A stretch of DNA of 64,000 bases from Gammaproteobacteria bacterium (GTDB lineage Bacteria > Pseudomonadota > Gammaproteobacteria > UBA6429 > Thiohalophilaceae): contig JAFLJQ010000110.1 in NCBI GenBank assembly GCA_022712915.1, positions 1 through 64,000 of the forward strand, given 5' to 3'. The position numbers and the translations under genes were made by a program. Positions within the stretch are counted from its first letter, which is position 1. Each line of letters begins with the position of its first letter. This document shows positions 2,184-18,254 of the stretch, in pieces. The notes under the pieces were generated by a model that did not search any database, was not told where the DNA came from, and saw only the letters and a program-made list of their open reading frames with translations.

Positions 2184-2737
2184 AATGCATCCAGTACCGC
2201 ACGCAAACGACTATTATTATAGTCTTCCTTCATTCTGATAATGCCCGTGCTGTCAATGACGATAGTCGTGCCCATACTGGCCTGATAGAGATGATAAAGT
2301 GACAGATCCGCATCAACCAACACATCCATATTACTGTAGCCATTATCCAGTTGCATTGAACGCGACACGCTAACCGAGCCCGAGACATAATCTACCAGGT
2401 AAAACGTGACATTCGGATAATCGGGAATAATATCTAAACGCATATTTGACATATGAGAATCACAAACCGGGCACCACATGGTGAAATAAATGAGCACAGC
2501 GCGGGTGCCCGGCAGCTCATGTGACAGAGTATGACTCACACTCAACGTATCCTGTAGTGTAAAGTCAGGCGATAGCTGGCTGACTTGCGTACCATTACTG
2601 CCGGCTTCCACCGCCGGGCGTTTATCATCACCAGAGGGATTCAGGTCATCAAATACACCGGTATCCATACCCCCACCACAGCCGGTAAGTCCCAGAATTA
2701 AAACAAACGCGATGCCCATTTTTTTAGCGTAATACAT
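2180..2737 (-). CDS. Redoxin-domain lipoprotein
   Basis: 185 residues with a lipobox (GLTGC, acylated Cys20) followed by a glycine run, so a membrane-anchored lipoprotein. The thioredoxin-like core has a CPVC motif at 89-92 in the setting IYFTMWCPVCDSHM and a later TTIVIDSTGIIR strand, as in TlpA/AhpC-type folds. It is the second thioredoxin-fold protein in this group of four genes. It overlaps the outer-membrane protein gene upstream by 14 bases and the dihaem gene downstream by four. Role inferred: delivery of reducing power, or metal or thiol handling at the membrane. Confidence 0.8.
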   Translation of the reverse strand: MYYAKKMGIAFVLILGLTGCGGGMDTGVFDDLNPSGDDKRPAVEAGSNGTQVSQLSPDFTLQDTLSVSHTLSHELPGTRAVLIYFTMWCPVCDSHMSNMRLDIIPDYPNVTFYLVDYVSGSVSVSRSMQLDNGYSNMDVLVDADLSLYHLYQASMGTTIVIDSTGIIRMKEDYNNSRLRAVLDAL

Positions 2738-3692
2738 AGCTTACCCCAACGGTATAAACATCGGTGACAGTAAAATTTTCACCCATGCCGTCTTTCGGTT
2801 CAGCATGGCTCCAGGTAAATTTGTATACCCAATCCCGATCCATGCTGGCATAGGCCATGGTAATGGAAGAAGAATTTTTTCCTATCTTGGTGGTAGGATC
2901 ACTCCGCCCATCGATCTCGCCAGCCTCTTCCTGTAAATATGAAAAGGCCAGAGTATAGGTCAGTGTCGACATATTCTCCAAAAAAGAGGTATACCCCAGG
3001 CTGTAAGTTTGTAAAAAACGGTCGCCCAGTGTTTGCGTATAGGGTTCCACATACTGACCATATTTACGGTTTACATCCCGCTCAAGGTATTTGCCATAGG
3101 AAAACACCATGGATACATTCCACGGATAAATGGTTTTATCCAACACAAGCGTACTGTCGACACGATAAAAACCCCGACCCGTCACATCGAAACTGTTATC
3201 AACATCATCATAGGGCGAAATGCCTGTGGGCACCGTCAGAGACATGCCGTAATAAACTGCAGGCACTAGATCTTTCCAGTCGCGCACCTTCCAGACACAT
3301 TTAATGCCGTCAAAAGCCTCGTAAAAAAGATTCAACGTGGTGTCGCCAACGCCTTCTGTATTAGAACTGATGCCGGCGTATTCACTCCGGTTCCAAACAT
3401 AGGGCATGATCACACTGGCCTGCCAGCGTGACGCCAACCGTTGTGCATAACCAAAATTCAACCGGTATTGACGCAGATCCGAACCCTGCGGGTCTTCGTG
3501 GTAGTCCCCTTGCGCATTCCAGTAGCCGTTATAAAATTCCATATCGGTGGACACATCAATCATGGCTTCGGAGAACTTGGGCAAAATCAGGGAAGAGGCC
3601 GAACCGCCACCACAACAGGAGGCGGCCCAGCTCAGGGGAGAAAAGGAAAGGGCGGCCCCGATAAGGGCCATCCGGGTACAACATAACATCAT
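2724..3692 (-). CDS. Predicted outer-membrane protein with CCGGG mature N-terminus
   Basis: 322 residues. A signal peptide ends near SWAA (residue 24), and the mature chain begins with the striking SCCGGGSASS. The rest alternates polar and aromatic residues and ends in VSYVLR, typical of a beta-barrel; it resembles the MetA-pathway/transporter-like outer-membrane families. The paired cysteines and glycines at the mature N-terminus are unusual for a porin and could bind metal or be a redox site served by the neighbouring redoxins. The start at 3692 has only a weak ribosome site; Met8 would still give a signal peptide. The gene follows the Met-rich lipoprotein gene by nine bases. Confidence 0.65.
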   Translation of the reverse strand: MMLCCTRMALIGAALSFSPLSWAASCCGGGSASSLILPKFSEAMIDVSTDMEFYNGYWNAQGDYHEDPQGSDLRQYRLNFGYAQRLASRWQASVIMPYVWNRSEYAGISSNTEGVGDTTLNLFYEAFDGIKCVWKVRDWKDLVPAVYYGMSLTVPTGISPYDDVDNSFDVTGRGFYRVDSTLVLDKTIYPWNVSMVFSYGKYLERDVNRKYGQYVEPYTQTLGDRFLQTYSLGYTSFLENMSTLTYTLAFSYLQEEAGEIDGRSDPTTKIGKNSSSITMAYASMDRDWVYKFTWSHAEPKDGMGENFTVTDVYTVGVSYVLR

Positions 3693-3701
3693 AGGAAAGC
3701 C

Positions 3702-5423
3702 TTACATTGACATGCCGTTGGTTGAAACCGTGAAGGTGCTATAGTTATTTTCATTGGCAGCCTTATCTTCACCATTAATCTGCACTCTGACATAGAGCGT
3801 ATCAACCAGCCCAGTGATTCCACTAGCTGACCAGTGGCCAACACCATTAACAGCAATATCATTAAGAGCATCAACCCAACATGTATCATCAACAGCTGGA
3901 TCAACAGCACATACCTGAACAACCATCGGATCAACAGTCAAAGGGTCGATGCCTGTGCCACTTTGAAGAACCGTAGAGGTTGATACACCCGGAAAACTCA
4001 TCATGTTTTCCTTAGCGGCAATATACAGGCTGAAGGTATAACCCATTTCTGCACTACCCGTAACGCCTTCGTTAAACAAGTAGTAAGTACGAGCCTCTGG
4101 TTTGGCCGGCATATTACCCATGGGCATAGCCATAATCTTGTCATCTATACCATATAATTTAGTAAGGGCAGTATCACCCATGGCCATTTTGACATCGGGG
4201 TAGAATATGGCGGTCTCACCGCCTACCATCATGGGCATACCATGTTCATCCTCACCCATTGTTGCACCAATCAAGACCTTAAGCTCCCAGAAGCCCATGG
4301 ACATGCCATTCATCATGCTTGAGGCCATTGAATAATAAAGGGTGCATGTAGAATTTCCATCACCATCAACGTCAGTGCAACCTTTACTGGGTGTGGCATG
4401 ATTCATCGCTGCCATGTGCATCATCGGCATCAGGCTCACGGTTTCGCCCGTAGCGGGGAAACCATCTGCATTGTTGGTGATACGCAAGGTGAAACTGCTC
4501 TTACCAACAACCTCATTCATCATCATTTTAGCCGGCATATATTTAACCGTATATGTTGCCGTTTTGGCCACTTTGCCAAACGGCAGGCTGCCAACCTGAT
4601 CATTGGTCAGGCCGGTCAGGCCTTTTGTTTCTTCGTGCATAAGAGCCAGTGCATGGCTATAGCGATTCTGCACATCAGCGGGCAACGATTTTGTATCGGT
4701 TATCGCAACGGCAACATCGTTTATATCCTGACCATCAAACTTGCCATCGGCAATATCATGGGCCAGAGCAGGTAGCAGATCAAACTGGTTTGGCATATCC
4801 GGGTTGATAACAGACAGACCCAGTTCAAGATTTAGCATGCTAAATACAGCAGCCCGCAAACCGGCGAGCATGCGGGCCTGTCCAGCACCCGCCGGTGGGT
4901 CAGTAACATCCACCGGTGCAATAGAGGTATCTGCTTCAAAACCAAAGGCATTCTTAAACAGCTCTTGTGCCTGGGCATGGTTTTTTTGCTGATTGCGCAT
5001 CAGATGCCGTACAATGGTCGAGGCAGGTGTAAGGTGCGCCCCTTTACTTGCGGTCAGGCTGTCAGCAGAGACATACGCCCCCAGAAAACCTGCGCTACCT
5101 TCAGCCCCGGTGGCCTCATCTTTGAATAAGCCGCCGGTAGATTCAAACATCAGCTCCCCCGTCAGGGACGCATTGGGAATAGTTATGCTATACGTACCGT
5201 CCGCACCGGTGGTAACCGGGCCTGCCACGGTATTACCGTTGCCGTCTTTTACCGTTACACTCGCCCCCTTTACAGGTGCCGCGACGACCGAACCGGTAAT
5301 AGTGGTATCGGTACTGGCCGCTGTGCCACCGCTGCCACCACCACCGCCACAAGCAAACAAAAAACCTGCCAGGCTGAGCAGAAGTAGTTTCAGGCTGGTC
5401 GCCACATACGATGTTCGAATCAT
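3702..5423 (-). CDS. Met/His-rich lipoprotein with Ig-like domains
   Basis: 573 residues. The lipobox is LFAC (Cys25), followed by a glycine run. Residues about 40-100 resemble a carboxypeptidase regulatory-like Ig fold (GSVVAAPVKGASVTVKDG). A helical middle contains NQQKNHAQAQELF. The region near residues 290-460 is very rich in methionine and histidine (for example MPMMHMAAMNHATP and SSMMNGMSMGF), similar in style to YtkA/FixH-like domains and to copper-binding sequences. The ATG follows AAGGGGGA. A RegA-like box lies 81 bases upstream, suggesting the 1161-5423 group has its own promoter. Copper or another soft metal is a guess from composition only. Confidence 0.6.
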   Translation of the reverse strand: MIRTSYVATSLKLLLLSLAGFLFACGGGGGSGGTAASTDTTITGSVVAAPVKGASVTVKDGNGNTVAGPVTTGADGTYSITIPNASLTGELMFESTGGLFKDEATGAEGSAGFLGAYVSADSLTASKGAHLTPASTIVRHLMRNQQKNHAQAQELFKNAFGFEADTSIAPVDVTDPPAGAGQARMLAGLRAAVFSMLNLELGLSVINPDMPNQFDLLPALAHDIADGKFDGQDINDVAVAITDTKSLPADVQNRYSHALALMHEETKGLTGLTNDQVGSLPFGKVAKTATYTVKYMPAKMMMNEVVGKSSFTLRITNNADGFPATGETVSLMPMMHMAAMNHATPSKGCTDVDGDGNSTCTLYYSMASSMMNGMSMGFWELKVLIGATMGEDEHGMPMMVGGETAIFYPDVKMAMGDTALTKLYGIDDKIMAMPMGNMPAKPEARTYYLFNEGVTGSAEMGYTFSLYIAAKENMMSFPGVSTSTVLQSGTGIDPLTVDPMVVQVCAVDPAVDDTCWVDALNDIAVNGVGHWSASGITGLVDTLYVRVQINGEDKAANENNYSTFTVSTNGMSM

Positions 5424-5503
5424 GAAAAATCCCCCTTAAATTGAGCCAGTGTGATCAGTTTTTGATGACTAGCATCCTAGCCACACTGTAAACAATTGGG
5501 AAT

Positions 5504-5518
5504 GTGACATAGTGTCGC
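5504..5518. promoter_or_regulatory. RegA/RegR-like box before the lipoprotein gene
   Basis: GTGACATAGTGTCGC matches the RegR consensus I recall, GNG(A/G)C(A/G)TTNNGNCGC, at every fixed position but one. The same 15-mer, with one change, recurs at 18669-18683, and the bases before it (AAT) are also shared. It lies in the 105-base gap between the NHL-cytochrome gene and the lipoprotein gene start. Confidence 0.6.
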
Positions 5519-5528
5519 AGGCAGGGAC

Positions 5529-8003
5529 TCACCTGAGATAATCCGCCCCACTGTCACGCGTGAATTTGTCATGGTAATACTTGTATTTCACCGGTGTCTC
5601 CAGGCCATGACAGGTGATACAGAAGCTGCCTTTAGGCCCCTTGCGGCGCAGAAAACTGTTTAGCACCGTGCCATCCTGATTACTTGCGGTAGCCGCTTTG
5701 GCCGATGGCAGGGCTGGATTTTTTGTTTTTACCTGCCAGCGGTGAGGGTTGTGGCAGGTAATACAGGCAATGATGCCGAACTCAGTATTATTATTCTGCT
5801 GATCCGTCAGTGGCATGATTTTGGCGTCTGAGCGCAAGACTATGTCTCTGGCTGGATGGGAAAAATGCGCTACTGCGGCCTTTTCAGCGAGACCCTTTTT
5901 ACGATGACAATTAAGACAGAGCTTGTCACGCGAGGGAACAGTTTGTTTATCCCACTCAAGGGCAGGCGCTTCAAGCTGTTTGGCAGCATAGAGAAACGGC
6001 GTTTTGGGTTCGCCTCGATGCAGGCTATGACAGGCGCCGCACAGACCCGCCTCTTCAGGCGTGTCGCCAAATTGGTTTTGACTTTTTTTGGCCGTCACAC
6101 GCAGGTCGTGATCGCTATTCGCCACGGCATCATATTCTTCATGACAGAAACTGCACAGCTTACCGTTTTTGTATTCATACTTGAGCATCGGCGTGCCTTG
6201 CTTTCCACCATGCAGACTGTGACAACTCAAACAGGTGACGTGCGAGATCTTCTCATCACCCATAGTGATCGGTTTATCCAGTTTGATATTGACCGGGTGG
6301 ACGCCTTTTTCACGCGCGTCTTTTTTATCTTTGGCATTGTGGCGTTGATGACATTCGGCACACAACGCATCGGCATCGAGGGGCAGCAGGGTTTCATTTT
6401 TAGCCCCGTGGATCTGATGACAGCTCTGACAGATCATTTGTCGATCTTTTCCCAGTGTCGCGCCGCGATTGAGCAAGGCCGTGGGCAGGCCCTTGTGCAG
6501 TTTTTTATCTTTTGCATAACCTATGGCAGCGGCATCTGGCGGGGGCTTGAAATAAATGCCCACAGGATGATTGACACCACGCAGGGGATATTTTTTATCA
6601 AGGCTACTGTCAAGTTTTGACTCATGACATTGTTGACATAAATCACCATCCTTATTCAAGACCCGCAACCAGGGATTGGCATGATCACTATATAAGGTTT
6701 CGGCATGGTCAATGCCTTTATTGTGCGGGGTGTGGCAAGTACCACAAGAGAGCTGCTTTTTATCACTCGGTTGAATAATCAGCTGTGGAAACGCCTTGGG
6801 TATTTTATCCTCACGTTGCGTGGTTTTTTCTGTGTGTGTTTTTTTACGTTGATGATGGATGTCAGGGTGTTGCTCACCCTGACCGATTTGACGACGTGAA
6901 TCGACCACCACACCATGGTGGCAGCTATAACACATAGCCGAGGTGGCCACAGGCACAACACCATCCTGCACACCTTCATCGGCCGGATAATTATCTGCCC
7001 AACTAAAATGACAGGTGATACAATTTTTTTGCGAAGAAGAGGCTTGACGCTCTGATCTGGCAGTGGTTTGTTGTACATCCCGCTTGTGTAAACGAAACAG
7101 GCGGATGCGATTTTTCTGTGCTTCGACTACATAGAGCTGATCTTGCCACACGGTCAATACCGTAGGAGTGGTAAAATTCAGCGGTTTGCCATACTGATCC
7201 TGTAAAAAATCAACAAAGCGCCCGCGCCGGAAAATAGATACCGTACCACGATAGACATCACTCACCAGTAATCCGCCCTCTGCCTCAAAGGCCAGACCAT
7301 TAGGGCGATAAAGTTCGCCTTCCTCCAGACCAAAACGGCCAACATCAATAAAGTGCTGAGCCTGAGCATTGAACACCTGCACCCTGGCATTGAGAACATC
7401 GACCACATGCAGATAATTGTCCCGGTCTATCGTCAACTGAAACGGAAATTGAAACTCTCCCTTGGCCTCACCCCGTTTCCCCCAACAGCGTAGTGGTTCA
7501 CCACTCTTGATATCGGTGCGACATAGTTGGTGGTTACGGCGGTCGGCCCAGGTGATCACACCGTCATTAACTATAAGTGAGACCGGCTCTGGCAATGCAA
7601 CATCAAGCGGATGAGCCATAATGGCAACAGGTAAGACCAGGGAATTTATAAACAGACCCTGTAGATCAAACACGGCAATTCGATGATTACCGCTATCGGC
7701 AATATAAACGCGCCCATCGGCAATCGCGATCCCCATGGGCAGCTTGAGTTTGGCATCAAGGCCAAAGATAAAATCCTGCTGGCCTTTTTTTGTGAACACC
7801 ACCACCCGAGCATTGACGCCATCGAGTACATAGGCGCGACCATCATGACTAATCGCCACATCACTTGGTTGATCAAGATTAGCCTGTAACACGCCAATAG
7901 GTTCGGCAGACAGTGAGGGAGTGGCATATATTGTGCCAATTTGACCGAAGAAAAACAGACCAAGTAAAACAACAATATCTTTTTTATACAAAAATCGTTT
8001 CAC
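5529..8003 (-). CDS. NHL-repeat dodecahaem cytochrome c
   Basis: 824 residues with a signal peptide (to about residue 27, IYAT). Residues about 35-330 carry NHL beta-propeller repeats, with recurring patterns such as QPSDVAISHDGRAYVLD, GIAIADGRVYIADSGNHRIAVF and ARVQVFN. Residues about 345-810 hold twelve CXXCH motifs (CITCH, CYSCH, CGTCH, CQQCH, CQSCH, CAECH, CLSCH, CSFCH, CGACH, CLNCH, CITCH, CITCH), many followed by xxH as in SLHGG or NPH, giving bis-His ligands. A propeller joined to a haem wire suggests a large periplasmic or surface protein that binds a partner or mineral and conducts electrons. Its start overlaps the trihaem gene by four bases. Confidence 0.85.
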   Translation of the reverse strand: MKRFLYKKDIVVLLGLFFFGQIGTIYATPSLSAEPIGVLQANLDQPSDVAISHDGRAYVLDGVNARVVVFTKKGQQDFIFGLDAKLKLPMGIAIADGRVYIADSGNHRIAVFDLQGLFINSLVLPVAIMAHPLDVALPEPVSLIVNDGVITWADRRNHQLCRTDIKSGEPLRCWGKRGEAKGEFQFPFQLTIDRDNYLHVVDVLNARVQVFNAQAQHFIDVGRFGLEEGELYRPNGLAFEAEGGLLVSDVYRGTVSIFRRGRFVDFLQDQYGKPLNFTTPTVLTVWQDQLYVVEAQKNRIRLFRLHKRDVQQTTARSERQASSSQKNCITCHFSWADNYPADEGVQDGVVPVATSAMCYSCHHGVVVDSRRQIGQGEQHPDIHHQRKKTHTEKTTQREDKIPKAFPQLIIQPSDKKQLSCGTCHTPHNKGIDHAETLYSDHANPWLRVLNKDGDLCQQCHESKLDSSLDKKYPLRGVNHPVGIYFKPPPDAAAIGYAKDKKLHKGLPTALLNRGATLGKDRQMICQSCHQIHGAKNETLLPLDADALCAECHQRHNAKDKKDAREKGVHPVNIKLDKPITMGDEKISHVTCLSCHSLHGGKQGTPMLKYEYKNGKLCSFCHEEYDAVANSDHDLRVTAKKSQNQFGDTPEEAGLCGACHSLHRGEPKTPFLYAAKQLEAPALEWDKQTVPSRDKLCLNCHRKKGLAEKAAVAHFSHPARDIVLRSDAKIMPLTDQQNNNTEFGIIACITCHNPHRWQVKTKNPALPSAKAATASNQDGTVLNSFLRRKGPKGSFCITCHGLETPVKYKYYHDKFTRDSGADYLR

Positions 8004-8818
8004 TTCAATATATTGCCGATGCGTATACGTTCATCATCTTTTTTATAACGTTCAAAAAAACGCACCACCGTATTGCGTTGCAGGGCATTCAATTGTTTTG
8101 TCGTGGCCCCAAGTGCCTTGAGATCGAGCAGGGGATTTTTTTTGCTATGACATGCCTTACAGGCAGGGCCCTGTTCTTTCAATGGGCTATGCAGGCGAGC
8201 CTTAATGCTGGCGCGTTGTTCATTGTCGGCCTCTTTCCAGTCACGTGCAGTCTGTTGTGCAAAATCACTGTCCTTGAATAACAGTACCGCTTCACCGTTC
8301 AAAAATGGGGCAATGCGCGCACCGACCAAGGGCGCAAGCGGCATTTTTTTTTGCTGGCCCTTGCGAGTGGCACTCTTATCCCCCGGTATTACCGTTGTCA
8401 CACTGCGTGGTGCAAGCATCGTCCCGGCCTCTACTCCGTCATAGGCCAGCCAATGGTATTCCAGCTGTATGTCTTTTGGTCGAAAGTGGCAGGTTTCACA
8501 GGCGATATAACGGCTGTGCATATTCATAAAGCTACGGTTGCGTTTATTTTTACGATGCGGCAGGGCCAGATGACAGCCCGTACACAGCGCTTGTTTAACC
8601 TGTATTTTTTGTTCGTCGCGTTTATGAAAGGGGCCAACAGCTATTTTAGCTCGTAGCTTGATCTCTTTATGTTCTTTTATCTGCTTGCGAGCCTCTTGCA
8701 GTGTTTTGTCACTTATCGTCGCAGCCTCAAGCTGTTGTTGATACAAGGGTTTAGCACTGACGGCTCCACTAATCAGCAATAACAGAAATACCAGGGCGTA
8801 ATGGCTATTCACTGTCAC
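8000..8818 (-). CDS. Trihaem cytochrome c
   Basis: 272 residues with a signal peptide (about residues 1-22, ending VSA). There are three CXXCH motifs: CTGCH (79-83), CETCH (107-111) and CKACH near residue 220, with candidate distal histidines in HLALPH and HFRPK. The rest is lysine-rich and helical. It overlaps its neighbours by a few bases on both sides (14 with the polyferredoxin gene), so it is translated as part of the block. Likely a periplasmic carrier between the inner-membrane fusion protein and the NHL cytochrome; that placement is inferred from gene order. Confidence 0.8.
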   Translation of the reverse strand: MTVNSHYALVFLLLLISGAVSAKPLYQQQLEAATISDKTLQEARKQIKEHKEIKLRAKIAVGPFHKRDEQKIQVKQALCTGCHLALPHRKNKRNRSFMNMHSRYIACETCHFRPKDIQLEYHWLAYDGVEAGTMLAPRSVTTVIPGDKSATRKGQQKKMPLAPLVGARIAPFLNGEAVLLFKDSDFAQQTARDWKEADNEQRASIKARLHSPLKEQGPACKACHSKKNPLLDLKALGATTKQLNALQRNTVVRFFERYKKDDERIRIGNILK

Positions 8819-11057
8819 CCTTTTTGTCCTTTGTGTGATGCGATGTTTTATGTCTATCTTTATGCACCGATTTTTTAGTCTGTATATTTTTTTTTCCTTT
8901 ATGCCTGACCTTCTGACCGATCATCTTTATCTGAAAGGCATCACCACCGAACATGGCATAGATCACGCTTCTTTTTTTATCGCCGTAACGGCTCCACCAC
9001 AGGCTGCCGATACCAATAACCAGAATAATGGGTGCCAGCGCAAATAGCGCCTTGGCCCAGCCTGATTCCAGCCGGGAACGATCGATAGGCACGATCTTGT
9101 TCATCGAGGGAATCATGTCAATGTCGTGCAAGTCAGTTTTGACAAACAGCTTGTTAAGCGGGTGAGTGGCAAAACCATGACACTCACTTTGCGCGCAGGT
9201 CTTGGCGAGGTTATCCTCATGTGTCGCCGCCTTTTTGTTTTCATCCCGTAATATGCCGTGACGAAAACCCTTCGGTGCATGACAGTCCACACAGGATGCA
9301 CCCTTCTCAACGCCACTTTCCAATAATCGTCCATGCAAGGTCATGGCATAACTGTCACTCGCCAGAATAAAACGGGGGCCGGCCTTTTTCTTTTCACCGG
9401 TTTGTTTGTTCTCGATCTCTACCTTGGCCATACGCTCATAATCGGCATGACACTCTATACAGACCCGGTTGTGGTCGGTTTTGTCCCAGCGCGCACCGAT
9501 AAAGCGGCGCAAGATATGTCCACCAAATTGCCCTAGCCAGATCTCCCCCTGATGGCAGCGGCCACATTCGGTATCAAGATGATCAAAGGCTTCTTTAAAT
9601 TTGGGGATGGATTTCTCACCGATATAAAGTTCATTGCGGTGACATTTGCGGCACGAGGGCAAGGCATTTTCACTTACCTCTTTAATACGGTTGCCTCCAG
9701 TAAAGCCTTTACTCCAGCCCTCACCGTGTATGGAGTCCTTGAACTCTTTAACCACCGCCTCATGGGTATAGGGTTTACCTTCAGAAGGTTCTTCCACATG
9801 ACAGGATTCACCGCAGTCAACTTCACCATTTTCCACCTTATGGGGATAGTCCTGAATCTTGCGGTGACAATCCTTGCAGGGCACGCTGCCATGCAATGAA
9901 CTGTAGTAGTGGTTTTTGTCGATGGACGCACTGCGCAGCACACCTTGTTTATCGATATATTCCAGGCCCTCGTAGGCATGACAGGAAAAACAACCATCCG
10001 GATCGGGGTGACGCTCCGCCGCCTTAAGGCTTGGACTAAAACCGATCAACAGGGCGCTGATCAAAAAAAAGCCAAACAATACCGCTGCCCGCCAACGCCG
10101 CTTACGTTTTTCTTGAAAACCTTGTTTGTGCGGCTCCACATAGATCGCCTGCCACTTGGGTTGAGGGTAAAACTCAACGCCTTTTTTCTTGCGTTTAGGT
10201 TCAATTTCCTTTGGTGCGGCGCGCCAATCAATCGCACCCCATTCACATACATCTACACATTCATGACAGGACATACAGGAGAGCTGATCGACCACGGCAA
10301 TGCGATCTTTCATCTGGATGGCACCGGTCATACAATTGCGGGCACAGATATTACAACCGGTGCAGCGGTCGCGCTCGACGCGGATGTGGCGAGTAAAATG
10401 AAATCTAGCACCGAGACGATTAACCAGGCCGTCAATCGCACCGATAGGGCAAAGGAACTGACAATAGGCGCGTCCCTTGCTGGCAAAAAAACCCAACAGG
10501 AACAGCAGTCCAATATTGACTAATCCCACAGCAGAAAAAATAAAGGCGATCCCTTTTGCTCCACCACTAAATGCCTCAAAAATGCGCGGTACGGTAATAA
10601 AGTTACACAGGGTACAGGCACTGATGCCCAACAAAGGCATCAACAATAAAAAGACTGCAAAATAACCATAACGAATCGGCACCTGGGGCAAAGCACGATA
10701 TTCAATCTTCCAGCGATCATTGAGACTCCGGCTGACCAGTTCAGGCATGCCGCCTACCGGGCAAATATAGGCACACCACATGCGACCATAAAAAAAGGTC
10801 GTGATCAAAATAGTCGCCAGCATATAGACGCCAATCGAGGCTACCTGCACCTGATTGACCAGATCCGCCGGGGACATACCCGGGAAGAGCAAATAAAAAC
10901 GGCGCATACACAGCTTGCCACAGAGATCGGGGTTGCCGACCAAACTAGGTAAAAATACCAGTGGCGCAAAAAACATGGAACAGGAAAGCATGATCAACAG
11001 GTAGCGATACTTCTGCTGATTAGGGATCGCCCTGATATTGTTAATTATGTTTATCAT
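8805..11057 (-). CDS. NapH/CcoG-like polyferredoxin fused to an octahaem domain
   Basis: 750 residues. The N-terminal half has five predicted TM segments (about 17-40, 70-90, 128-150, 165-190 and 322-342) and NapH/NosR/CcoG-type iron-sulfur sites: CAYICP, CQFLCP, CTGCNICARNC and CMSCHECVDVC. After TM5 comes a periplasmic domain with eight haem motifs: six CXXCH (CFSCH, CKDCH, CRKCH, CGRCH, CIECH, CVDCH), one CX3CH (CGESCH) and one CX4CH (CAQSECH). A sixth TM (ALFALAPIILVIGIG) and a basic tail close the protein. This is a likely quinone-linked inner-membrane module that moves electrons to or from the periplasmic cytochromes. The fusion and the wide haem motifs are notable. Confidence 0.8.
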   Translation of the reverse strand: MINIINNIRAIPNQQKYRYLLIMLSCSMFFAPLVFLPSLVGNPDLCGKLCMRRFYLLFPGMSPADLVNQVQVASIGVYMLATILITTFFYGRMWCAYICPVGGMPELVSRSLNDRWKIEYRALPQVPIRYGYFAVFLLLMPLLGISACTLCNFITVPRIFEAFSGGAKGIAFIFSAVGLVNIGLLFLLGFFASKGRAYCQFLCPIGAIDGLVNRLGARFHFTRHIRVERDRCTGCNICARNCMTGAIQMKDRIAVVDQLSCMSCHECVDVCEWGAIDWRAAPKEIEPKRKKKGVEFYPQPKWQAIYVEPHKQGFQEKRKRRWRAAVLFGFFLISALLIGFSPSLKAAERHPDPDGCFSCHAYEGLEYIDKQGVLRSASIDKNHYYSSLHGSVPCKDCHRKIQDYPHKVENGEVDCGESCHVEEPSEGKPYTHEAVVKEFKDSIHGEGWSKGFTGGNRIKEVSENALPSCRKCHRNELYIGEKSIPKFKEAFDHLDTECGRCHQGEIWLGQFGGHILRRFIGARWDKTDHNRVCIECHADYERMAKVEIENKQTGEKKKAGPRFILASDSYAMTLHGRLLESGVEKGASCVDCHAPKGFRHGILRDENKKAATHEDNLAKTCAQSECHGFATHPLNKLFVKTDLHDIDMIPSMNKIVPIDRSRLESGWAKALFALAPIILVIGIGSLWWSRYGDKKRSVIYAMFGGDAFQIKMIGQKVRHKGKKNIQTKKSVHKDRHKTSHHTKDKKGDSE

Positions 11058-11066
11058 TCGGCTACC

Positions 11067-11126
11067 TTTTAAATAATCCAGCGGGCTTTTAAAAAATACA
11101 GCAGGCTTTTAAAACACATGGCAGGC
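11067..11126. repeat. Three 20-bp tandem repeats
   Basis: The period is exactly 20: TTTTAAATAATCCAGCGGGC, TTTTAAAAAATACAGCAGGC, TTTTAAAACACATGGCAGGC. The third copy contains the stop codon and last codons of the hexahaem gene, including its final haem motif. The first two fill the gap before the polyferredoxin gene start. This suggests expansion of the gene end into the intercistronic space. Confidence 0.7.
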
Positions 11127-12125
11127 CAGACACAGACGGCCATCTTTGGCTGGTAGCCGTAACAACACCTCATGCTTGAGACGTTGATAAGAAAGTTTAT
11201 AAGTCATACCATTTTCACTTTCTAGTGCCTGCAAGCGATCTTTTTTATCGGCGCTATAAACAACATTCCAGTCATGTTCGACGTAACTCACCCCCTCATC
11301 CAGGCTAACGTCAGCCACCTGTTTGCCTGCTGGTTTTGTTTCTCTGATGACGCCTTTCTCATGCGGGTTATGGCAAGTAGTGCACATCACCTTGCCATCA
11401 CTATCCAGAGGCAGGATTACGTTCAGCTTTTGTTCTGCCTGTTTGATACGCTTGCGCATTTTTTCATCCACCTTGACCTGATGCTCAAGGGCGTTGAGAT
11501 GAGGTGTTTTCAAATGACAGCCAAAACAAATCTTTTGTGGTGGCAAACGAAACTTCAAATCTTTCAGGGCAATATCTTTAGTGGGATCGGGAGCCTTTTT
11601 GTGGCAGTACTCGCAAGCCTTCTTATCATACTTGCCATTTTTGTCGAGTAGCTTATGAATATTGGGAGGTTGGTAATCTTTCTTTTTATGGCAGTTGTAA
11701 CAAAAATCTGTCAGTTGTTGGTAAGGCCCGCCACGATGAAAGTTATCGGCTTTTTTATCGACCTCATCAAACGGGATATCTTTAATATCCTTAATGCCAT
11801 GACAGGTTTGGCAATCGATCTCGCCTTTTTTATTAAGCGGAAAAGATTTTGCCACCTGCATATCCTCTGGCGGCTTTACATTGGCGAGATGATGTAAGGG
11901 CGGCAGGTCTTTTTTATTATCTTGTCCTATCACTACGCTAGGCAACATCAGCACAAGCACAAGCAATAAGATATAGGTTGAGTTGAGGCATAAAACCCAA
12001 CAATGGTATAAAACAGAAAATTTAATGCCAGGGTAACTATCTATATTCCACGCTGAAATAGGATCGCTACCCCCCGTTGGGTTTCGTGTCTCAACCCAAC
12101 CTACATATAGTCTATGCATATTCAT
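11109..12125 (-). CDS. Hexahaem cytochrome c with MITE inside its signal peptide
   Basis: 338 residues as it stands, with six CXXCH motifs (CQTCH, CYNCH, CEYCH, CFGCH, CTTCH, CLACH); the last one ends only two residues from the C-terminus. Between MNMHRLY and ILLLVLVLMLPSVVIGQ lie 44 residues encoded by an inserted MITE (11973-12104). Removing them restores a classic signal peptide with a positive n-region and a leucine-rich core. The insertion keeps the frame, so a protein with an N-terminal extension may still be made; whether it is exported is uncertain. The start ATG overlaps the end of the octahaem lipoprotein gene by four bases. Presumed periplasmic carrier. Confidence 0.8.
   Translation of the reverse strand: MNMHRLYVGWVETRNPTGGSDPISAWNIDSYPGIKFSVLYHCWVLCLNSTYILLLVLVLMLPSVVIGQDNKKDLPPLHHLANVKPPEDMQVAKSFPLNKKGEIDCQTCHGIKDIKDIPFDEVDKKADNFHRGGPYQQLTDFCYNCHKKKDYQPPNIHKLLDKNGKYDKKACEYCHKKAPDPTKDIALKDLKFRLPPQKICFGCHLKTPHLNALEHQVKVDEKMRKRIKQAEQKLNVILPLDSDGKVMCTTCHNPHEKGVIRETKPAGKQVADVSLDEGVSYVEHDWNVVYSADKKDRLQALESENGMTYKLSYQRLKHEVLLRLPAKDGRLCLACHVF
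11973..12104. mobile_element. MITE-like insertion with ~30-bp imperfect inverted ends
   Basis: The left end (TAGGTTGAGTTGAGGCATAA and on to ACCCAAC) pairs with the right end read in reverse (TAGGTTGGGTTGAGACACGA and on to ACCCAAC). No ORF of its own is present. ATATAG occurs at both edges (11971-11976 and 12105-12110), so the target duplication may be TA, ATA or longer. Net insertion is 132 bases, divisible by three. A TA target and this layout are typical of MITEs mobilised by Tc1/mariner-IS630-type transposases; that assignment is inference. Confidence 0.75.
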
Positions 12126-13096
12126 AAACCCGCCTGCACCGCTTCACCGTGGCTATGGCAGGTTCGACAATCGCCACTGGTCTGATGTACGCCGGACAGG
12201 CCGTTGCCGGTATCCAGATCGCCATCATCGATAATTGCCTCCATCTGGTGGCACAACACACAGAGTTGGGCAAAATCGCCATCAGGGGTTTGCACCGTAT
12301 AGGGGTTGTTGCGTATCACTGCATCCAGTCGCTTCACGCCTTTATCGGAGCGATCAATAATAAGACGGATGTTATTCGTGGCGTGCATACTGTGACAGTC
12401 GGTGCAGTCCACCACACTTTGGTATGTATATCCTGTACGTAGTCCGGCATAACTGCGTTCGCCTGAACCATCCTGATAACCGTGTTTATTAATCAAGTGA
12501 AATTCATCGTCCACTGCTGTCAAACTATCATCTACGATTTCAAAACCAACTTGTTGATGATCTCGATTGTGACAACGCAGACAAAAATCAGACACATTGT
12601 TGTAGGCTGTAAATACTTGTCTAGCATCAGGGAAACGAGTGAGGTCCTGATTGTTATCAAATCGCCCATCCATATTAGAAGCATCATGACAAACAAGACA
12701 TTGTGCATCACCAAGCGCCGCCACTTTACCGACCGCAAAACCATGCGCATGTTGCCCTTGCAAGGGGGGTGACTGTGGTAAATCAGTGTCGTTATGACAT
12801 ACCCCACAGCGGCGCGGCTCACTTTCATTCGTACCGTTGCGACCATGACAACCTGTGCAGGTGGCATAGCCTTTGGTTTTGACTATGCTGCGAATATTGT
12901 CCAGACTCGCATGGATCACCCCGAGGGCATGACAACTATCGCAATTGGCCCGACCCCATGCATAGCCATTGCCACCGTGTGTGGCATCCAGGATCAGTTT
13001 GCCCTCGGCCTGCGACACCGTAGCTGTTTCACCCTTGTCACCGCCACCACAAGCTATCAATAGCAGCAGGAAAATAAATAAATAAATATTTTTCAT
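12122..13096 (-). CDS. Octahaem cytochrome c lipoprotein
   Basis: About 324 residues from the ATG at 13096, which overlaps the preceding TGA (TGATG); an upstream ATG at 13117 is less likely. The sequence MKNIYLFIFLLLLIACGGG is a lipoprotein signal with acylated Cys16. Eight CXXCH motifs follow: CDSCH, CTGCH, CGVCH, CLVCH, CLRCH, CTDCH, CVLCH and CRTCH. A lipid-anchored multihaem protein next to a beta-barrel gene is the pattern of outer-membrane porin-cytochrome conduits such as the Omb/Oma/Omc systems of Geobacter, though no close sequence match can be claimed. It could sit on either face of the outer membrane. Confidence 0.85.
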   Translation of the reverse strand: MKNIYLFIFLLLLIACGGGDKGETATVSQAEGKLILDATHGGNGYAWGRANCDSCHALGVIHASLDNIRSIVKTKGYATCTGCHGRNGTNESEPRRCGVCHNDTDLPQSPPLQGQHAHGFAVGKVAALGDAQCLVCHDASNMDGRFDNNQDLTRFPDARQVFTAYNNVSDFCLRCHNRDHQQVGFEIVDDSLTAVDDEFHLINKHGYQDGSGERSYAGLRTGYTYQSVVDCTDCHSMHATNNIRLIIDRSDKGVKRLDAVIRNNPYTVQTPDGDFAQLCVLCHQMEAIIDDGDLDTGNGLSGVHQTSGDCRTCHSHGEAVQAGL

Positions 13097-13731
13097 CAAG
13101 GTATCTTCCGATGGCAATCAATGCAGTACGATGCCTCATGACAACGACCGCACTGGGCAGCATTCATTCGCGCCTCAACACCATGGCTGCCACGATAACC
13201 GAGGGCATGGTTTCGACGCTGTGCGCCATCGCGCCGGAAGTGGCAATCAGAGCAAAATGATAAATCGATATGGCAACTTCGACACTTGCCATCATCCAAC
13301 TGGGCATCCACTGCATGGCGGTGGATATAATTGAAGTTATGATCCTCCGGCCAAATAGAGGTCATATCATAATGACAAAGACTACAACGACTGGTGGCGG
13401 TCATTTTTTCCACGTGGCAGTCATGGCAAATCGCCTTCATCGGTTCATTGGCAATGACATTGAGCCGCTTTAGTTGTTTAAGATCACTGACCTTGTTTTT
13501 ATTAAATGAGTGACAAATCAGACAGGGATCGCCATTTTTTTTCATCACCTCCATATGAGCCTCATGGGGATAATAAATTTCCAGTTGTTCTTTGCGTTTC
13601 TCCCACCAGCGTTTTTCCTTGTCTGATTTTTTCTCTACCGGCAATGAAGAAGCAAGGGGATTCACCACTTTATCCGCTGCATATGACAATGAAAAAAGCA
13701 TCAGCAAGATGATCGCAAGCCCGGACTTCAT
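13096..13731 (-). CDS. Heptahaem cytochrome c
   Basis: 211 residues with a signal peptide (MKSGLAIILLMLFSLSYA). Seven CXXCH motifs crowd into about 150 residues: CLICH, CHDCH, CSLCH, CRSCH, CSDCH, CGRCH and CIDCH. Many histidines nearby (HNFNYIHRH, HALGYRGSHG) can be distal ligands. The high haem density suits a nanowire-like segment, perhaps one threaded into the neighbouring barrel as MtrA-type cytochromes are; that parallel is functional inference only. It starts at the end of the barrel gene (shared base) and overlaps the octahaem lipoprotein gene. Confidence 0.85.
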   Translation of the reverse strand: MKSGLAIILLMLFSLSYAADKVVNPLASSLPVEKKSDKEKRWWEKRKEQLEIYYPHEAHMEVMKKNGDPCLICHSFNKNKVSDLKQLKRLNVIANEPMKAICHDCHVEKMTATSRCSLCHYDMTSIWPEDHNFNYIHRHAVDAQLDDGKCRSCHIDLSFCSDCHFRRDGAQRRNHALGYRGSHGVEARMNAAQCGRCHEASYCIDCHRKIP

Positions 13732-14990
13732 TACCCCGATCCTGGAGAGTGGTCGTTAAATCGATAGCTTATACCCAGGGCAATACGGTATTCATCCTCC
13801 AGGCGGCTATTCCAGATATGAGACAATTGCGTAGTGAAAAGCAACCCTGGCCTGGCGTCCTCAATACGTAACATGTGTTCCAGACGAAGCTCGATACCCA
13901 CCGCGTTATTATCACCGGCCAACTTTTTTTCCTGTCGTTGCCACACCCCACCCAACACCGTGCGCGTATGAGTGCTCAAGGGTTTTCTCATTTCCACGTA
14001 AAAACTGCTGGCACGATCGTCTCTTAGTACGAGGCGATCAAGTTGCGCCTCAAAACGCAGACCCCGGCCATCACGGTGCAGCCAGTTAATCGCCTGGCCA
14101 TAACCGCCATCACCCGATTCCCGTTCAATCTGTCGCCCACTAAACGAGCCGTTATGCCTGCCCCGGGTATTGATGTGCAGCGCCGCCCGACTCTGGGATT
14201 GGCGGCCACTATCATAATGTGAATAAAAACGGTCTCTAAAGCTCAGAACTTCTGTAGCAGGTTCATAGGTTTCATAATCGAATTGCAGACGGGCATCATC
14301 ACCCAACATGGCAGACAAATTGAGTTGATATGACTCCCACATCTTTTCATCCATAAGCCAGCTTCCCGCCAGTGAAAGACTGAAGGGTTCACCGTTGCGT
14401 CGGCGGGTGTCCGTTGATTTTGCCTTTAAACCCACCGTCATGCGCTCAGTCTTACCTTGCTGTTCAAAAGCCTGCCAACCGAGACGGCCATCCAAAGCAA
14501 ATGTTCCCCATGTTTGCTCATGCAAATGAAGATCGGCTCCAGAAACTGACTCGCCTTCAATAGAACGTAAACCTTCAATACGACGCGGTACGCCGCGATA
14601 TAACAATAACGATGTCAGGTCACCGGACAATCTAAGGCGAATACCATCCAGGGTATAAAAACCAAGACCATCGGCCTGTTCAAAACGTCCCAACCTGACG
14701 GCACTGCCGTTATCACTTAATTTTTTTTCAAGGTAGAGTTGATAGACATGTCCCTCATCTTCATCATCTCGTTGGCGCAACCCCAGACTCATGCCGCCAT
14801 GCAAACCTGCCTTTTGATCGCCGTAATTAATATCGAGTCGTTCTTCGAGCCCCTTCTTATCCTGAAACTCGCGGTTGTCCAAGGTTATTAGCGTATCAGA
14901 ACGCCCCGATAAACCCGCCAGACAATACGACGGCAACAACATCAAACCTGCCACCACAAGAAAACCACGCATAACCCACCGTGGTTGCAC
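13731..14990 (-). CDS. Predicted outer-membrane beta-barrel of the cytochrome conduit
   Basis: 419 residues from a GTG at 14990 that overlaps the stop of the small upstream gene (TAGTG). The ATG at 14972 also gives a good signal peptide (MRGFLVVAGLMLLPSYCLAG). The mature chain has alternating hydrophobic and polar strands separated by charged turns (for example GHVYQLYLEKKL and SAVRLGRFEQ) and ends with a strand containing a terminal aromatic (RIALGISYRF). No haem motifs occur. Its place between the small CSTCGGC protein and two multihaem genes argues for the porin part of a porin-cytochrome complex. It is shorter than MtrB-type barrels (about 700 residues) and close to Geobacter-type porins. 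Confidence 0.6.
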   Translation of the reverse strand: MQPRWVMRGFLVVAGLMLLPSYCLAGLSGRSDTLITLDNREFQDKKGLEERLDINYGDQKAGLHGGMSLGLRQRDDEDEGHVYQLYLEKKLSDNGSAVRLGRFEQADGLGFYTLDGIRLRLSGDLTSLLLYRGVPRRIEGLRSIEGESVSGADLHLHEQTWGTFALDGRLGWQAFEQQGKTERMTVGLKAKSTDTRRRNGEPFSLSLAGSWLMDEKMWESYQLNLSAMLGDDARLQFDYETYEPATEVLSFRDRFYSHYDSGRQSQSRAALHINTRGRHNGSFSGRQIERESGDGGYGQAINWLHRDGRGLRFEAQLDRLVLRDDRASSFYVEMRKPLSTHTRTVLGGVWQRQEKKLAGDNNAVGIELRLEHMLRIEDARPGLLFTTQLSHIWNSRLEDEYRIALGISYRFNDHSPGSG

Positions 14991-15220
14991 TAGACCGACT
15001 TATTGCTGTCGCCATAAAAATCGCCGTCTTGCCTTTTTTTATACAGCGCCCAACCGACAAGGGTGGCCAATGCCACCACGCAACCGCCACAGGTCGAACA
15101 ACGGCCTTCTTTGGGTAGTGTGCAATTAGAGGAGACAACAATATGACTTAGCGCGAGACCCGCTCCCGCTGCCCAAGGCAGATACTTCTCATGATGCTTT
15201 AACCAACTTACCCCTTTCAT
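14990..15220 (-). CDS. Small membrane protein with CSTCGGC motif
   Basis: 76 residues. It has two hydrophobic stretches (WAAGAGLALSHIVVSS and GCVVALATLVGWALY) around a cysteine cluster CSTCGGC, and a basic then acidic tail. I do not recognise the family. The clustered cysteines could bind a metal or cofactor at the membrane. It follows a strong intrinsic terminator and leads directly into the barrel gene, so it may be the first gene of a separately transcribed unit. Confidence 0.55.
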   Translation of the reverse strand: MKGVSWLKHHEKYLPWAAGAGLALSHIVVSSNCTLPKEGRCSTCGGCVVALATLVGWALYKKRQDGDFYGDSNKSV

Positions 15221-15239
15221 TTTTTATACCTCATTATTC

Positions 15240-15306
15240 AAAAAAAACACCATGGAGAGAGGATACGGAAGCATTACTGGAAGGGAATGCTCGGCTCTCC
15301 ATGGTG
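15240..15306 (-). terminator. Long intrinsic terminator after the octahaem gene
   Basis: Perfect 12-base arms, CACCATGGAGAG at 15248-15259 and CTCTCCATGGTG at 15295-15306, with an inner GCATT/AATGC stem. On the minus strand the stem is followed by eight T. It lies between the 975-residue cytochrome gene and the small CSTCGGC protein gene, so it may end or attenuate transcription there. Confidence 0.7.
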
Positions 15307-15326
15307 GTACACCGGTAACTGTAAAA

Positions 15327-18254
15327 TTAATTATTCATGCCTTTGCGCCGCCACAGGTAGAGGCCACTCAGAACAACAAGCATGGGTAACAAGGGATCAA
15401 AGGAGACATTGCGCTGCATGCTACAACCACTGCCGCCGCCACTGGCTGCTACAGTTTTATTTTCCACATTGCTGCCATCAACGCTGACCGTGCTATCGAC
15501 CAATGCGTAATAGCTGAAGTGGTTGGTTTCGAACGCCACATAACCCGGGACATCTTCTGACTGTCCTTTCAAACCAACAATTTTATCCACATCGACCTTC
15601 GCCCAGGTCGAACCATCCGAAGAGCTAATCAGACTCACTTGTGCTTTATCTGTGTTTGCCCCTTTATACGGTAGTTTTACCCATATAGGACTGGTAAAGC
15701 TGCTAATTTGTTTACGGTTTTTGTCCATGATTTCAAGCGAGAAGACATCTGATACTAAACCGCCCAAACCGGCATAATTAGCTGACCGGGAAATACCATC
15801 GCTAGCAATGGAAAACTCCGCACGGGAATTTGCCAGCCACCCTGTCTGCTCATTGATTTCTGACATCAGGCTCACACCACGCATGGCTTCATTTCCATAC
15901 GTGGACTGGAAACGGAAGACTGCCTGAGTAACACCCGATAGTTTTGCGCAAGACGGACTACCGTTGGCATAACTGTCATTCAATGCCGTTTGCAGTTTTT
16001 TAAAATCAGACTCACTCACATCAGCCTCAGCAAGCACCTCACTTGTGGCGCTACAAATTATTTCGCCACCCACCGCTGCTGCAGTTGCCGATTTCAATAT
16101 AGTTAATGATGGATCCAACTTCGTAGCGTAAAGAATATCCGCCACATTTTCGGTCACTACACCGCTTGCATCCATTTTCATGAATGGCATATCAAGCACA
16201 ACGATACCTTCCGTCACTAACCTGGGGTCGATCAGGCTCACAATCTCTTTAGAATTACTTTTTCCAAGCACCCCATCATCTGATAACAAGGAACTAAACC
16301 CACCACGAACTTTTTCATCATGACATTCAACACATTGTATCGATTCACCAACCGGTCTCGTATTGTGTGACAGAATATAGGCATTAGGTTCAGACCACAC
16401 CATAGCCATATCCGGCTTACCAAAACCTTTTGATACCATTAATTGGTCATAGGCATTTTTTAGCTTGATAAATACAAGATAGGCTTCAGGGTCACGGAAA
16501 CGCCACGCCCCATGGGATAAATACACTTCCACCTCAGCCAATGGTTCCCCCGTACCCGGGTTAATAATATAACCCTTTGGCGGGTTCATGTGGTCCGTGG
16601 TATCACCCACCAGTTTATAGACACTATCTGCTTCGGTTTTATTCAATACATGACCACTATTTTTATCTCGCCAGAATGCTCTCGGTTTGGATTGGTAAGG
16701 CGTGATCTTGCGCTGACCATCCTCACTTTCACGATAGCGATAAAGTATCTGTATTGGTTTACCTCTGCTTTCTTTGTTTGTGATATGACAGGCCTGACAG
16801 CTCACCTCATCCAGATGCACCTGAGTAATGCGCTTGCGCGACTCTTCTGTCGAAGCATTATAGGATAACTCAGAAAGCCACGCCTCATTATGTAACACTA
16901 ACATGCCATCCGCGTGTGTTAATGATTCCTTATTTATTGCATTTTCATGGCAATATTCACAGGTCTTTATCCCGGGAGAATAATCCAGGTCATTACGCAC
17001 ATCCATATCTGAATTTCCTTTTAAGAAATTATGGCTGGCGTCCATATCCACAGTTTTCTCCGTTTCAGAATTAAAATAGTTCCGGGTATGGCAGGCATTA
17101 CAATTCTCAATCATGCGTTCCACGCGACTGTCGCCACTACCCTCAACCCACGTTGCATTCTTATGGATGTCAGTTTTATAGGTTGAAACAAGTTCATTCT
17201 CTTCTAAAACTGCTTCGGCAACATCACCAAAACCATAGAAGCCACGCCGTGAATTACTTGTTCGGTGGCAACTCATACAGTTGTCATTATCCGGAAAACG
17301 CAGCATGGGGATCTGTACTTCCTTTGTCTCGTCAAAGGCAGCTTCATTCCAATTCAAAATAGGCAATCCATCATCACCTTTTACCAGCTTGCCATCAACA
17401 TCGCGCTCAAAGCTCACCACAGACTTATCAAGTTCCGGACTGAGAGGTTCGAGATTGAGGTTGATGTAGTTGAGAATGGCCGTGTTTGTGTAACGAAATA
17501 AGCCATCCTTAATAAATTCTGTACCACGTACATAACGGAATAAATCAAGCGGTGCAGAATCAACAACGGGGTTGCCCATATGATCTTTAAGCACTGGCTG
17601 ATCACCAAATGATTTGTTCAGCGCCTTAAGGTCTACATGGCACATCAAACAATCATTCTCAACCACGCCACTCTTTTTCCAATCCCAGCGAGATACCGTA
17701 TCACTTGATGCCTTTTGATTCTTGTCATCCGTACCACGATTATAGTAATCACCATCAAAAGGGCTAATCAAAGCCGTATCAACCTCATCATAACGTCGGC
17801 CATTTCGATCCTTTTCCATCCAGCCCCCACCGGCATGGCAACTGCTGCAACGCTGAATCCAACCGGCAGAACCCAGGTCTCCAAAAGCCTCGGCACTGGC
17901 ATTATTTTTTTTTGCCAGTCGTTCCGGGTTATTGCCGCCCATACAGTTGTAGCCCCCAAAATAACCAGGGCCGACCAGCACAGGAAACCCTCGTTTCGCA
18001 CCAAAATCATCGCGTGTTTCATCCCGGCCCTGTTCGATATGAAAAGCATGTGTGATGGAATCATAGTTATGACATTCACCACATGTCGTTTTAGAGCTGT
18101 ACGGCTTCTTACTGACAAATGCATTAGCGCCATTTTCATCCAGCAACTTGATTGCCGGATGCATACTAACCTGATCTATTGGCTGCGTTCCTGCATACAC
18201 CAGATTTACAACCAGCACCAATAACGAAAACAACGCGACTCTTGATTTACTCAC
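15327..18254 (-). CDS. Large octahaem cytochrome c with C-terminal sorting tail
   Basis: 975 residues starting at a GTG with AGGA close upstream; signal peptide to about residue 22. Eight CXXCH motifs span about residues 60-650: CGECH, CSSCH, CLMCH, CMSCH, CNACH, CEYCH, CQACH and CVECH. The C-terminal third lacks haems and looks like beta-rich surface domains. The end is a glycine-rich stretch with a cysteine (SGGGSGCSM), a hydrophobic helix (LLPMLVVLSGLYL) and RRKGMNN. This tripartite tail resembles GlyGly-CTERM/JDVT-CTERM-type sorting signals, implying protease-processed surface display. Its enzymatic role is unknown; a terminal reductase or oxidase at the cell surface is possible. Confidence 0.8.
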   Translation of the reverse strand: MSKSRVALFSLLVLVVNLVYAGTQPIDQVSMHPAIKLLDENGANAFVSKKPYSSKTTCGECHNYDSITHAFHIEQGRDETRDDFGAKRGFPVLVGPGYFGGYNCMGGNNPERLAKKNNASAEAFGDLGSAGWIQRCSSCHAGGGWMEKDRNGRRYDEVDTALISPFDGDYYNRGTDDKNQKASSDTVSRWDWKKSGVVENDCLMCHVDLKALNKSFGDQPVLKDHMGNPVVDSAPLDLFRYVRGTEFIKDGLFRYTNTAILNYINLNLEPLSPELDKSVVSFERDVDGKLVKGDDGLPILNWNEAAFDETKEVQIPMLRFPDNDNCMSCHRTSNSRRGFYGFGDVAEAVLEENELVSTYKTDIHKNATWVEGSGDSRVERMIENCNACHTRNYFNSETEKTVDMDASHNFLKGNSDMDVRNDLDYSPGIKTCEYCHENAINKESLTHADGMLVLHNEAWLSELSYNASTEESRKRITQVHLDEVSCQACHITNKESRGKPIQILYRYRESEDGQRKITPYQSKPRAFWRDKNSGHVLNKTEADSVYKLVGDTTDHMNPPKGYIINPGTGEPLAEVEVYLSHGAWRFRDPEAYLVFIKLKNAYDQLMVSKGFGKPDMAMVWSEPNAYILSHNTRPVGESIQCVECHDEKVRGGFSSLLSDDGVLGKSNSKEIVSLIDPRLVTEGIVVLDMPFMKMDASGVVTENVADILYATKLDPSLTILKSATAAAVGGEIICSATSEVLAEADVSESDFKKLQTALNDSYANGSPSCAKLSGVTQAVFRFQSTYGNEAMRGVSLMSEINEQTGWLANSRAEFSIASDGISRSANYAGLGGLVSDVFSLEIMDKNRKQISSFTSPIWVKLPYKGANTDKAQVSLISSSDGSTWAKVDVDKIVGLKGQSEDVPGYVAFETNHFSYYALVDSTVSVDGSNVENKTVAASGGGSGCSMQRNVSFDPLLPMLVVLSGLYLWRRKGMNN

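Follow-up and report, generated by a model that had tools for sequence, protein, structure and literature searches.

A doublet of GTAG-tagged REPs lies in frame within the signal-peptide region of a hexahaem cytochrome gene

Introduction

What becomes of a periplasmic cytochrome when a mobile palindrome settles in frame inside its signal peptide? The question is raised by a hexahaem c-type cytochrome gene (11109–12125, minus strand) in the 64-kb window, by which the whole stretch of DNA analysed here is meant. The gene has 338 codons, 44 of which belong to a 132-bp insert (11973–12104) lying between codons 7 and 8. Its product is of the Cytochrome_C7 type with paired CXXCH motifs, six in all, and matches multihaem cytochrome c7 families. 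An earlier note on this DNA had described the insert as a MITE that keeps the frame open, either a recent hit that disables export or an adopted N-terminus, and the open reading frame does run continuously through it. The account that we regard as probable, taken as a whole, is that a doublet of REPs, moved by a RAYT-type transposase, inserted into a gene that formerly had an ordinary Sec signal peptide, and that the balance tips somewhat towards the gene still being in use.

The gene sits in a long multihaem cytochrome cluster on the minus strand (2724–18254), perhaps an uncharacterised extracellular electron conduit. Other members are an NHL-repeat/multihaem fusion (5529–8003), a NapH-type ferredoxin fused to a multihaem domain (8805–11057), a probable outer-membrane barrel that has no Pfam or NCBIfam match (13731–14990) and a large multihaem cytochrome (15327–18254) with a C-terminal JDVT-CTERM sorting domain (44.8 bits; cut-off 27), which suggests that this last product may be membrane-anchored or processed. 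Directly upstream of the hexahaem gene lies another multihaem cytochrome gene (12122–13087, minus strand), whose stop codon overlaps the hexahaem start (ATGA). A search of 369 genomes of the class found the hexahaem gene in only 7, its own genome counted among them.

Anatomy of the insert

REPs are named for their extragenic position. Read along the minus strand, the insert begins with GTAGGTTGGGTTGAGACACGAAACCCAAC, an intact REP (12076–12104, minus strand) in which a perfect 8-bp stem comes directly after a 5' GTAG tag (hairpin z -3.8). The exact 29-mer of this right unit recurs in 10 stretches from several bacterial phyla. At the other end lies a worn partner in inverted orientation (11973–12001, plus strand; ATAGGTTGAGTTGAGGCATAAAACCCAAC), with ATAG in place of GTAG, a mismatched stem and no stable hairpin of its own. 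It differs from the nearest canonical form, GTAGGTTGGGTTGAGGCACGAAACCCAAC from Limnothrix (L090:3980), at 4 of 29 positions, all of them C:G-to-T:A transitions. This wear makes the supposed recency of the insertion doubtful, yet the gene is still open.

A spacer of 74 nt (12002–12075) separates the two REPs. As DNA the entire insert folds into a single long hairpin (z -5.6), and the RNA of the region gives a z of -5.1. The inverted ends of about 30 bp reported earlier are borne out as 31-nt arms, 84% complementary and 74 nt apart; inverted pairs of like quality occur nowhere else in the 64-kb window and in none of three shuffled windows. The GTAG tetranucleotide with its short palindromic stem is the hallmark of GTAG-tagged REPs (PMC3733652), and two inverted REPs that form a single hairpin are the build of a REPIN or BIME (PMC3116915). 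The insert is such a doublet of inverted GTAG-tagged REPs, and it encodes VGWVETRNPTGGSDPISAWNIDSYPGIKFSVLYHCWVLCLNSTY. What the host genome does not have is a high-copy population of these units: its related REPs are few, and besides this doublet there are two others. High copy number is typical of REPINs and lies outside their structural definition.

A classical MITE is a derivative of a DDE-transposase insertion sequence. The target-site duplication expected of one is absent here, so that of the earlier designation the general part stands, a small mobile element in signal-peptide coding sequence, as the orthologues and the REP anatomy indicate, whereas the class is that of a GTAG REP doublet.

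An N-terminus gained by insertion

Comparison with relatives, which the earlier note had proposed, points the same way. Seven orthologues were found, at 44–69% identity, and all six with a readable N-terminus (G014, L041, L042, L043, L044 and L046; L045, whose start is not settled, was left out) have a short signal peptide and no extension. The closest, from a genome of the same family (G014), is 69% identical; its product begins MRELCVTVFLFLPVVLFATE, its start lies two bases past the upstream stop, and its cluster is syntenic over all six genes tested (51–76% identity), the upstream cytochrome gene being 64% identical and in the same order. The remaining orthologues come from six further families of the class (44–67% identity). 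In L025, L041, L042, L043 and L044, too, the hexahaem start either overlaps the upstream stop or lies almost next to it, and in L041 and L042 the ATGA overlap is identical to that in the host genome. Since the orthologues lack the extension and share this start context, the start codon at 12125, which opens the seven codons MNMHRLY (12105–12125), is ancestral and the 44 residues were added. Two genomes of the same genus have no close orthologue of the gene, and a protein scan of the genome contigs with the hexahaem product returned no relatives.

The extension might instead be native and the repeat-like DNA a coincidence, and it is true that none of the relatives found is close enough to offer an empty site at the nucleotide level. 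Every readable orthologous N-terminus is nevertheless free of the 44 residues, and one arm of the insert matches a REP of other phyla exactly. We give this idea next to no credence.

Frame, junction and target site

Removal of positions 11973–12104 restores the frame and yields MNMHRLYILLLVLVLMLPSVVIGQ, which confirms the earlier claim that MNMHRLY would be joined to a signal peptide; the resulting N-terminus, MNMHRLYILLLVLVLMLPSVVIGQDNKK, has the outline of a normal Sec signal peptide. Its hydrophobic core and cleavage region now lie displaced at 11922–11972 (minus strand; ILLLVLVLMLPSVVIGQ). Of the insert's six frames, all but the one in use are closed. Under a first-order Markov model of the insert, an open frame of 44 codons has a chance of about 10%, and being both in frame and open is an event of about 3% without selection.

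The earlier note had also pointed to flanking copies of ATATAG (11971–11976 and 12105–12110), but as a target-site duplication they do not hold up. Collapsing the copies deletes 134 bp and gives a frameshift and a stop (MNMHRLYLIACACADVA*), so they are not the duplicated target of an in-frame ancestor; cutting at the REP boundaries removes 132 bp and restores the frame. As the left-hand copy shares bases with the left REP's worn GTAG tag, the pair is best read as chance together with decay of GTAG to ATAG. Nor does the cutting chemistry fix the junction. TnpA-REP enzymes cut in vitro at CT-type sites (PMC8266576), and excision between the flanking CT dinucleotides takes out 140 bp by our own count, which is out of frame; the exact insertion junction is therefore not settled by the CT-cutting model.

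REP relatives and candidate transposases

RAYTs, the REP-associated tyrosine transposases (TnpA-REP), act on single-stranded hairpins, and the doublet was probably moved by such an HUH transposase. The host genome carries a full-length RAYT gene (C140:5229–5762; L093), which matches NF047646 with 197.7 bits against a cut-off of 80 and is flanked on either side by related GTAG REPs, the arrangement of a REPtron. The stem of these REPs is GTTGGGG/CCCCAAC (GTAGRTTGGGGAGAG...CCCCAAC), as against GTTGGGTT/AACCCAAC in the insert, and because of this difference the resident RAYT is not claimed as the cognate enzyme. Four IS200/IS605 TnpA genes are also present.

Among 369 genomes of the class, the pattern GTAGGTTGGGTTGAG-N4..12-AACCCAAC was matched in 5, one of which has seven copies, and a reversed control pattern gave no matches. 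In the host genome, where REPs were counted by pattern only, there are two exact-pattern copies, besides more REPs of this broad type and two further REP doublets (C175:132–216 and C166:110–407). The exact 29-mer of the right REP is also found in Nostoc, Leptolyngbyaceae, Chamaesiphon, Endozoicomonas, Poribacteria and others. The spacer has no convincing homologue in the host genome, in 40 genomes of the order or in plasmid records, and the worn form of the left REP was not found in viral contigs.

Two further arrangements of REPs were seen. On another contig of the host genome (L094; C200:35554, 36477 and 37400), three GTAG REPs run in the same direction at a spacing of exactly 923 bp, and two of them are associated with a repeated stretch of about 290 bp that is 94% identical. 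Leptolyngbyaceae and Poribacteria each have two exact REPs whose adjoining bases match (L083 and L087; L082 and L088), and the poribacterial pair is a doublet with the same spacing. This REP is thus mobile or duplicated in phyla that are not related to one another, a hint of horizontal spread.

Fate of the protein

Translation should still begin at 12125, with the conserved ATG that overlaps the upstream stop. It would give a precursor of 338 residues whose hydrophobic core starts only at residue 52, behind some 50 residues that carry no net charge. Could such a protein still be exported? The net charge over the last 15 residues ahead of the core is 0, and to judge from the sequence the loss of a positive n-region beside the core could impede export or reverse the topology. 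It is nevertheless somewhat more likely than not that the gene is still used and that the encoded tail serves as a long n-region, in which K36 would precede a weakly hydrophobic stretch continuous with the old core.

In the bleakest outcome, the REPIN has parted the positive start from the hydrophobic core, the product is not exported and therefore gets no haem, and the gene has begun to decay into a pseudogene. The neutral tail near the core and the position of the core at residue 52 would fit, as would the fact that REPs are mostly extragenic (PMC3116915; PMC3733652) and that a strong mRNA hairpin starts about 20 nt past the start codon. The state of the gene speaks otherwise: the remainder, 282 codons long, is open, without stop or frameshift and with all haem motifs present, the left REP seems old and not newly arrived, an insert both in frame and open would be a coincidence, and the cluster and its neighbours are intact and syntenic with those of the G014 genome. 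Loss of function is a serious possibility, though not the outcome that we expect. A second, more distant cytochrome in the host genome (C30; 34–38% identity) sits in a cluster of different build and is not an obvious backup for the hexahaem gene.

How long would an unselected gene have stayed open? With the left REP diverged at 4 of 29 positions (95% interval 4–32%) as the basis, simulations at 4% and 14% divergence left a gene free of selection open in 54% to 4% of runs, depending on divergence and model, which makes the stop-free remainder weak evidence of use; the four differences may also predate the insertion. With an open frame, an intact cluster and the S to L and P to S changes described below on one side and a neutral tail and the range of the simulation on the other, the lean towards continued use is slight: a gene still in use, with the extension tolerated and translated, is favoured by a small measure over a disabled one.

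In another rival reading, the precursor never includes the REPIN-encoded residues. If translation began downstream, the REPIN would in effect be a 5' untranslated control element and the signal peptide would be short and near its original size, as PMC3733652 argues for many N-terminal REPs. In-frame TTG, GTG, GTG and ATG codons do occur within the displaced core. Starts at these positions would, however, lie inside the hydrophobic core and deprive the peptide of its n-region (MLVLVLMLPSVVIGQ is one example), the candidate codons have nothing like a Shine-Dalgarno sequence in front of them, and the conserved ATG at the upstream stop is still there. Because the candidate starts fall in the core and lack a Shine-Dalgarno-like sequence, that explanation fits this gene poorly, and we hold it to be decidedly improbable.

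A retained gene translated from the conserved ATG, the reading preferred here, leaves room for a stronger proposal, in which the REPIN has been taken over as the n-region. Relative to the canonical REP, the left unit encodes S to L and P to S changes beside the core, with one more change silent (CWVSCLNPTY to CWVLCLNSTY), and for the best segment of 19 residues the summed apparent insertion energy falls from +1.0 to -1.8 on a hydropathy scale, which is not a signal-peptide predictor. In this proposal the two substitutions would have made the peptide a continuous hydrophobic extension of the old core. Such adoption is unlikely; if true, a periplasmic electron carrier would have a mobile palindrome as part of its functional signal peptide or signal anchor, one of unusual length.

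Comparison with known systems

Fixed in frame where n-region and core meet, the doublet offers a natural test of how far a Sec signal peptide tolerates disruption, and of whether REPIN-coded peptides come to be used. What sets it apart is that it lies in a signal peptide, and within a cluster of respiratory cytochrome genes; a literature search on REPs in signal peptides returned nothing specific.

In its general features the insert resembles the REPINs of Bertels and Rainey (2011, PMC3116915), which likewise consist of two inverted REPs and a spacer that fold into one long hairpin; unlike those, it resides in a genome with few related units, not hundreds, and its spacer is single-copy. The Rickettsia palindromic elements (RPE) also form in-frame palindromic inserts in coding genes, N-termini included, and some of the proteins that bear them are expressed in vivo (PMC3733652). 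They belong to a different sequence family.

The closest likeness is to the GTAG-tagged REP dimers surveyed by Di Nocera et al. (2013, PMC3733652), who found REP doublets inside ORFs, often at the N-terminus. The GTAG tag, the short palindrome and the two opposite units are shared, as are the position within an ORF, near its N-terminus and in frame. The differences lie in the host, here a multihaem cytochrome, in the site, exactly between the n-region and the core of a signal peptide, and in the length encoded: the single doublet supplies 44 residues, whereas in the survey dimers and groups contributed 20–30 and larger clusters 43–82. Events of this class were surveyed as early as 2013, and the present case is a new and well-bounded example of it.
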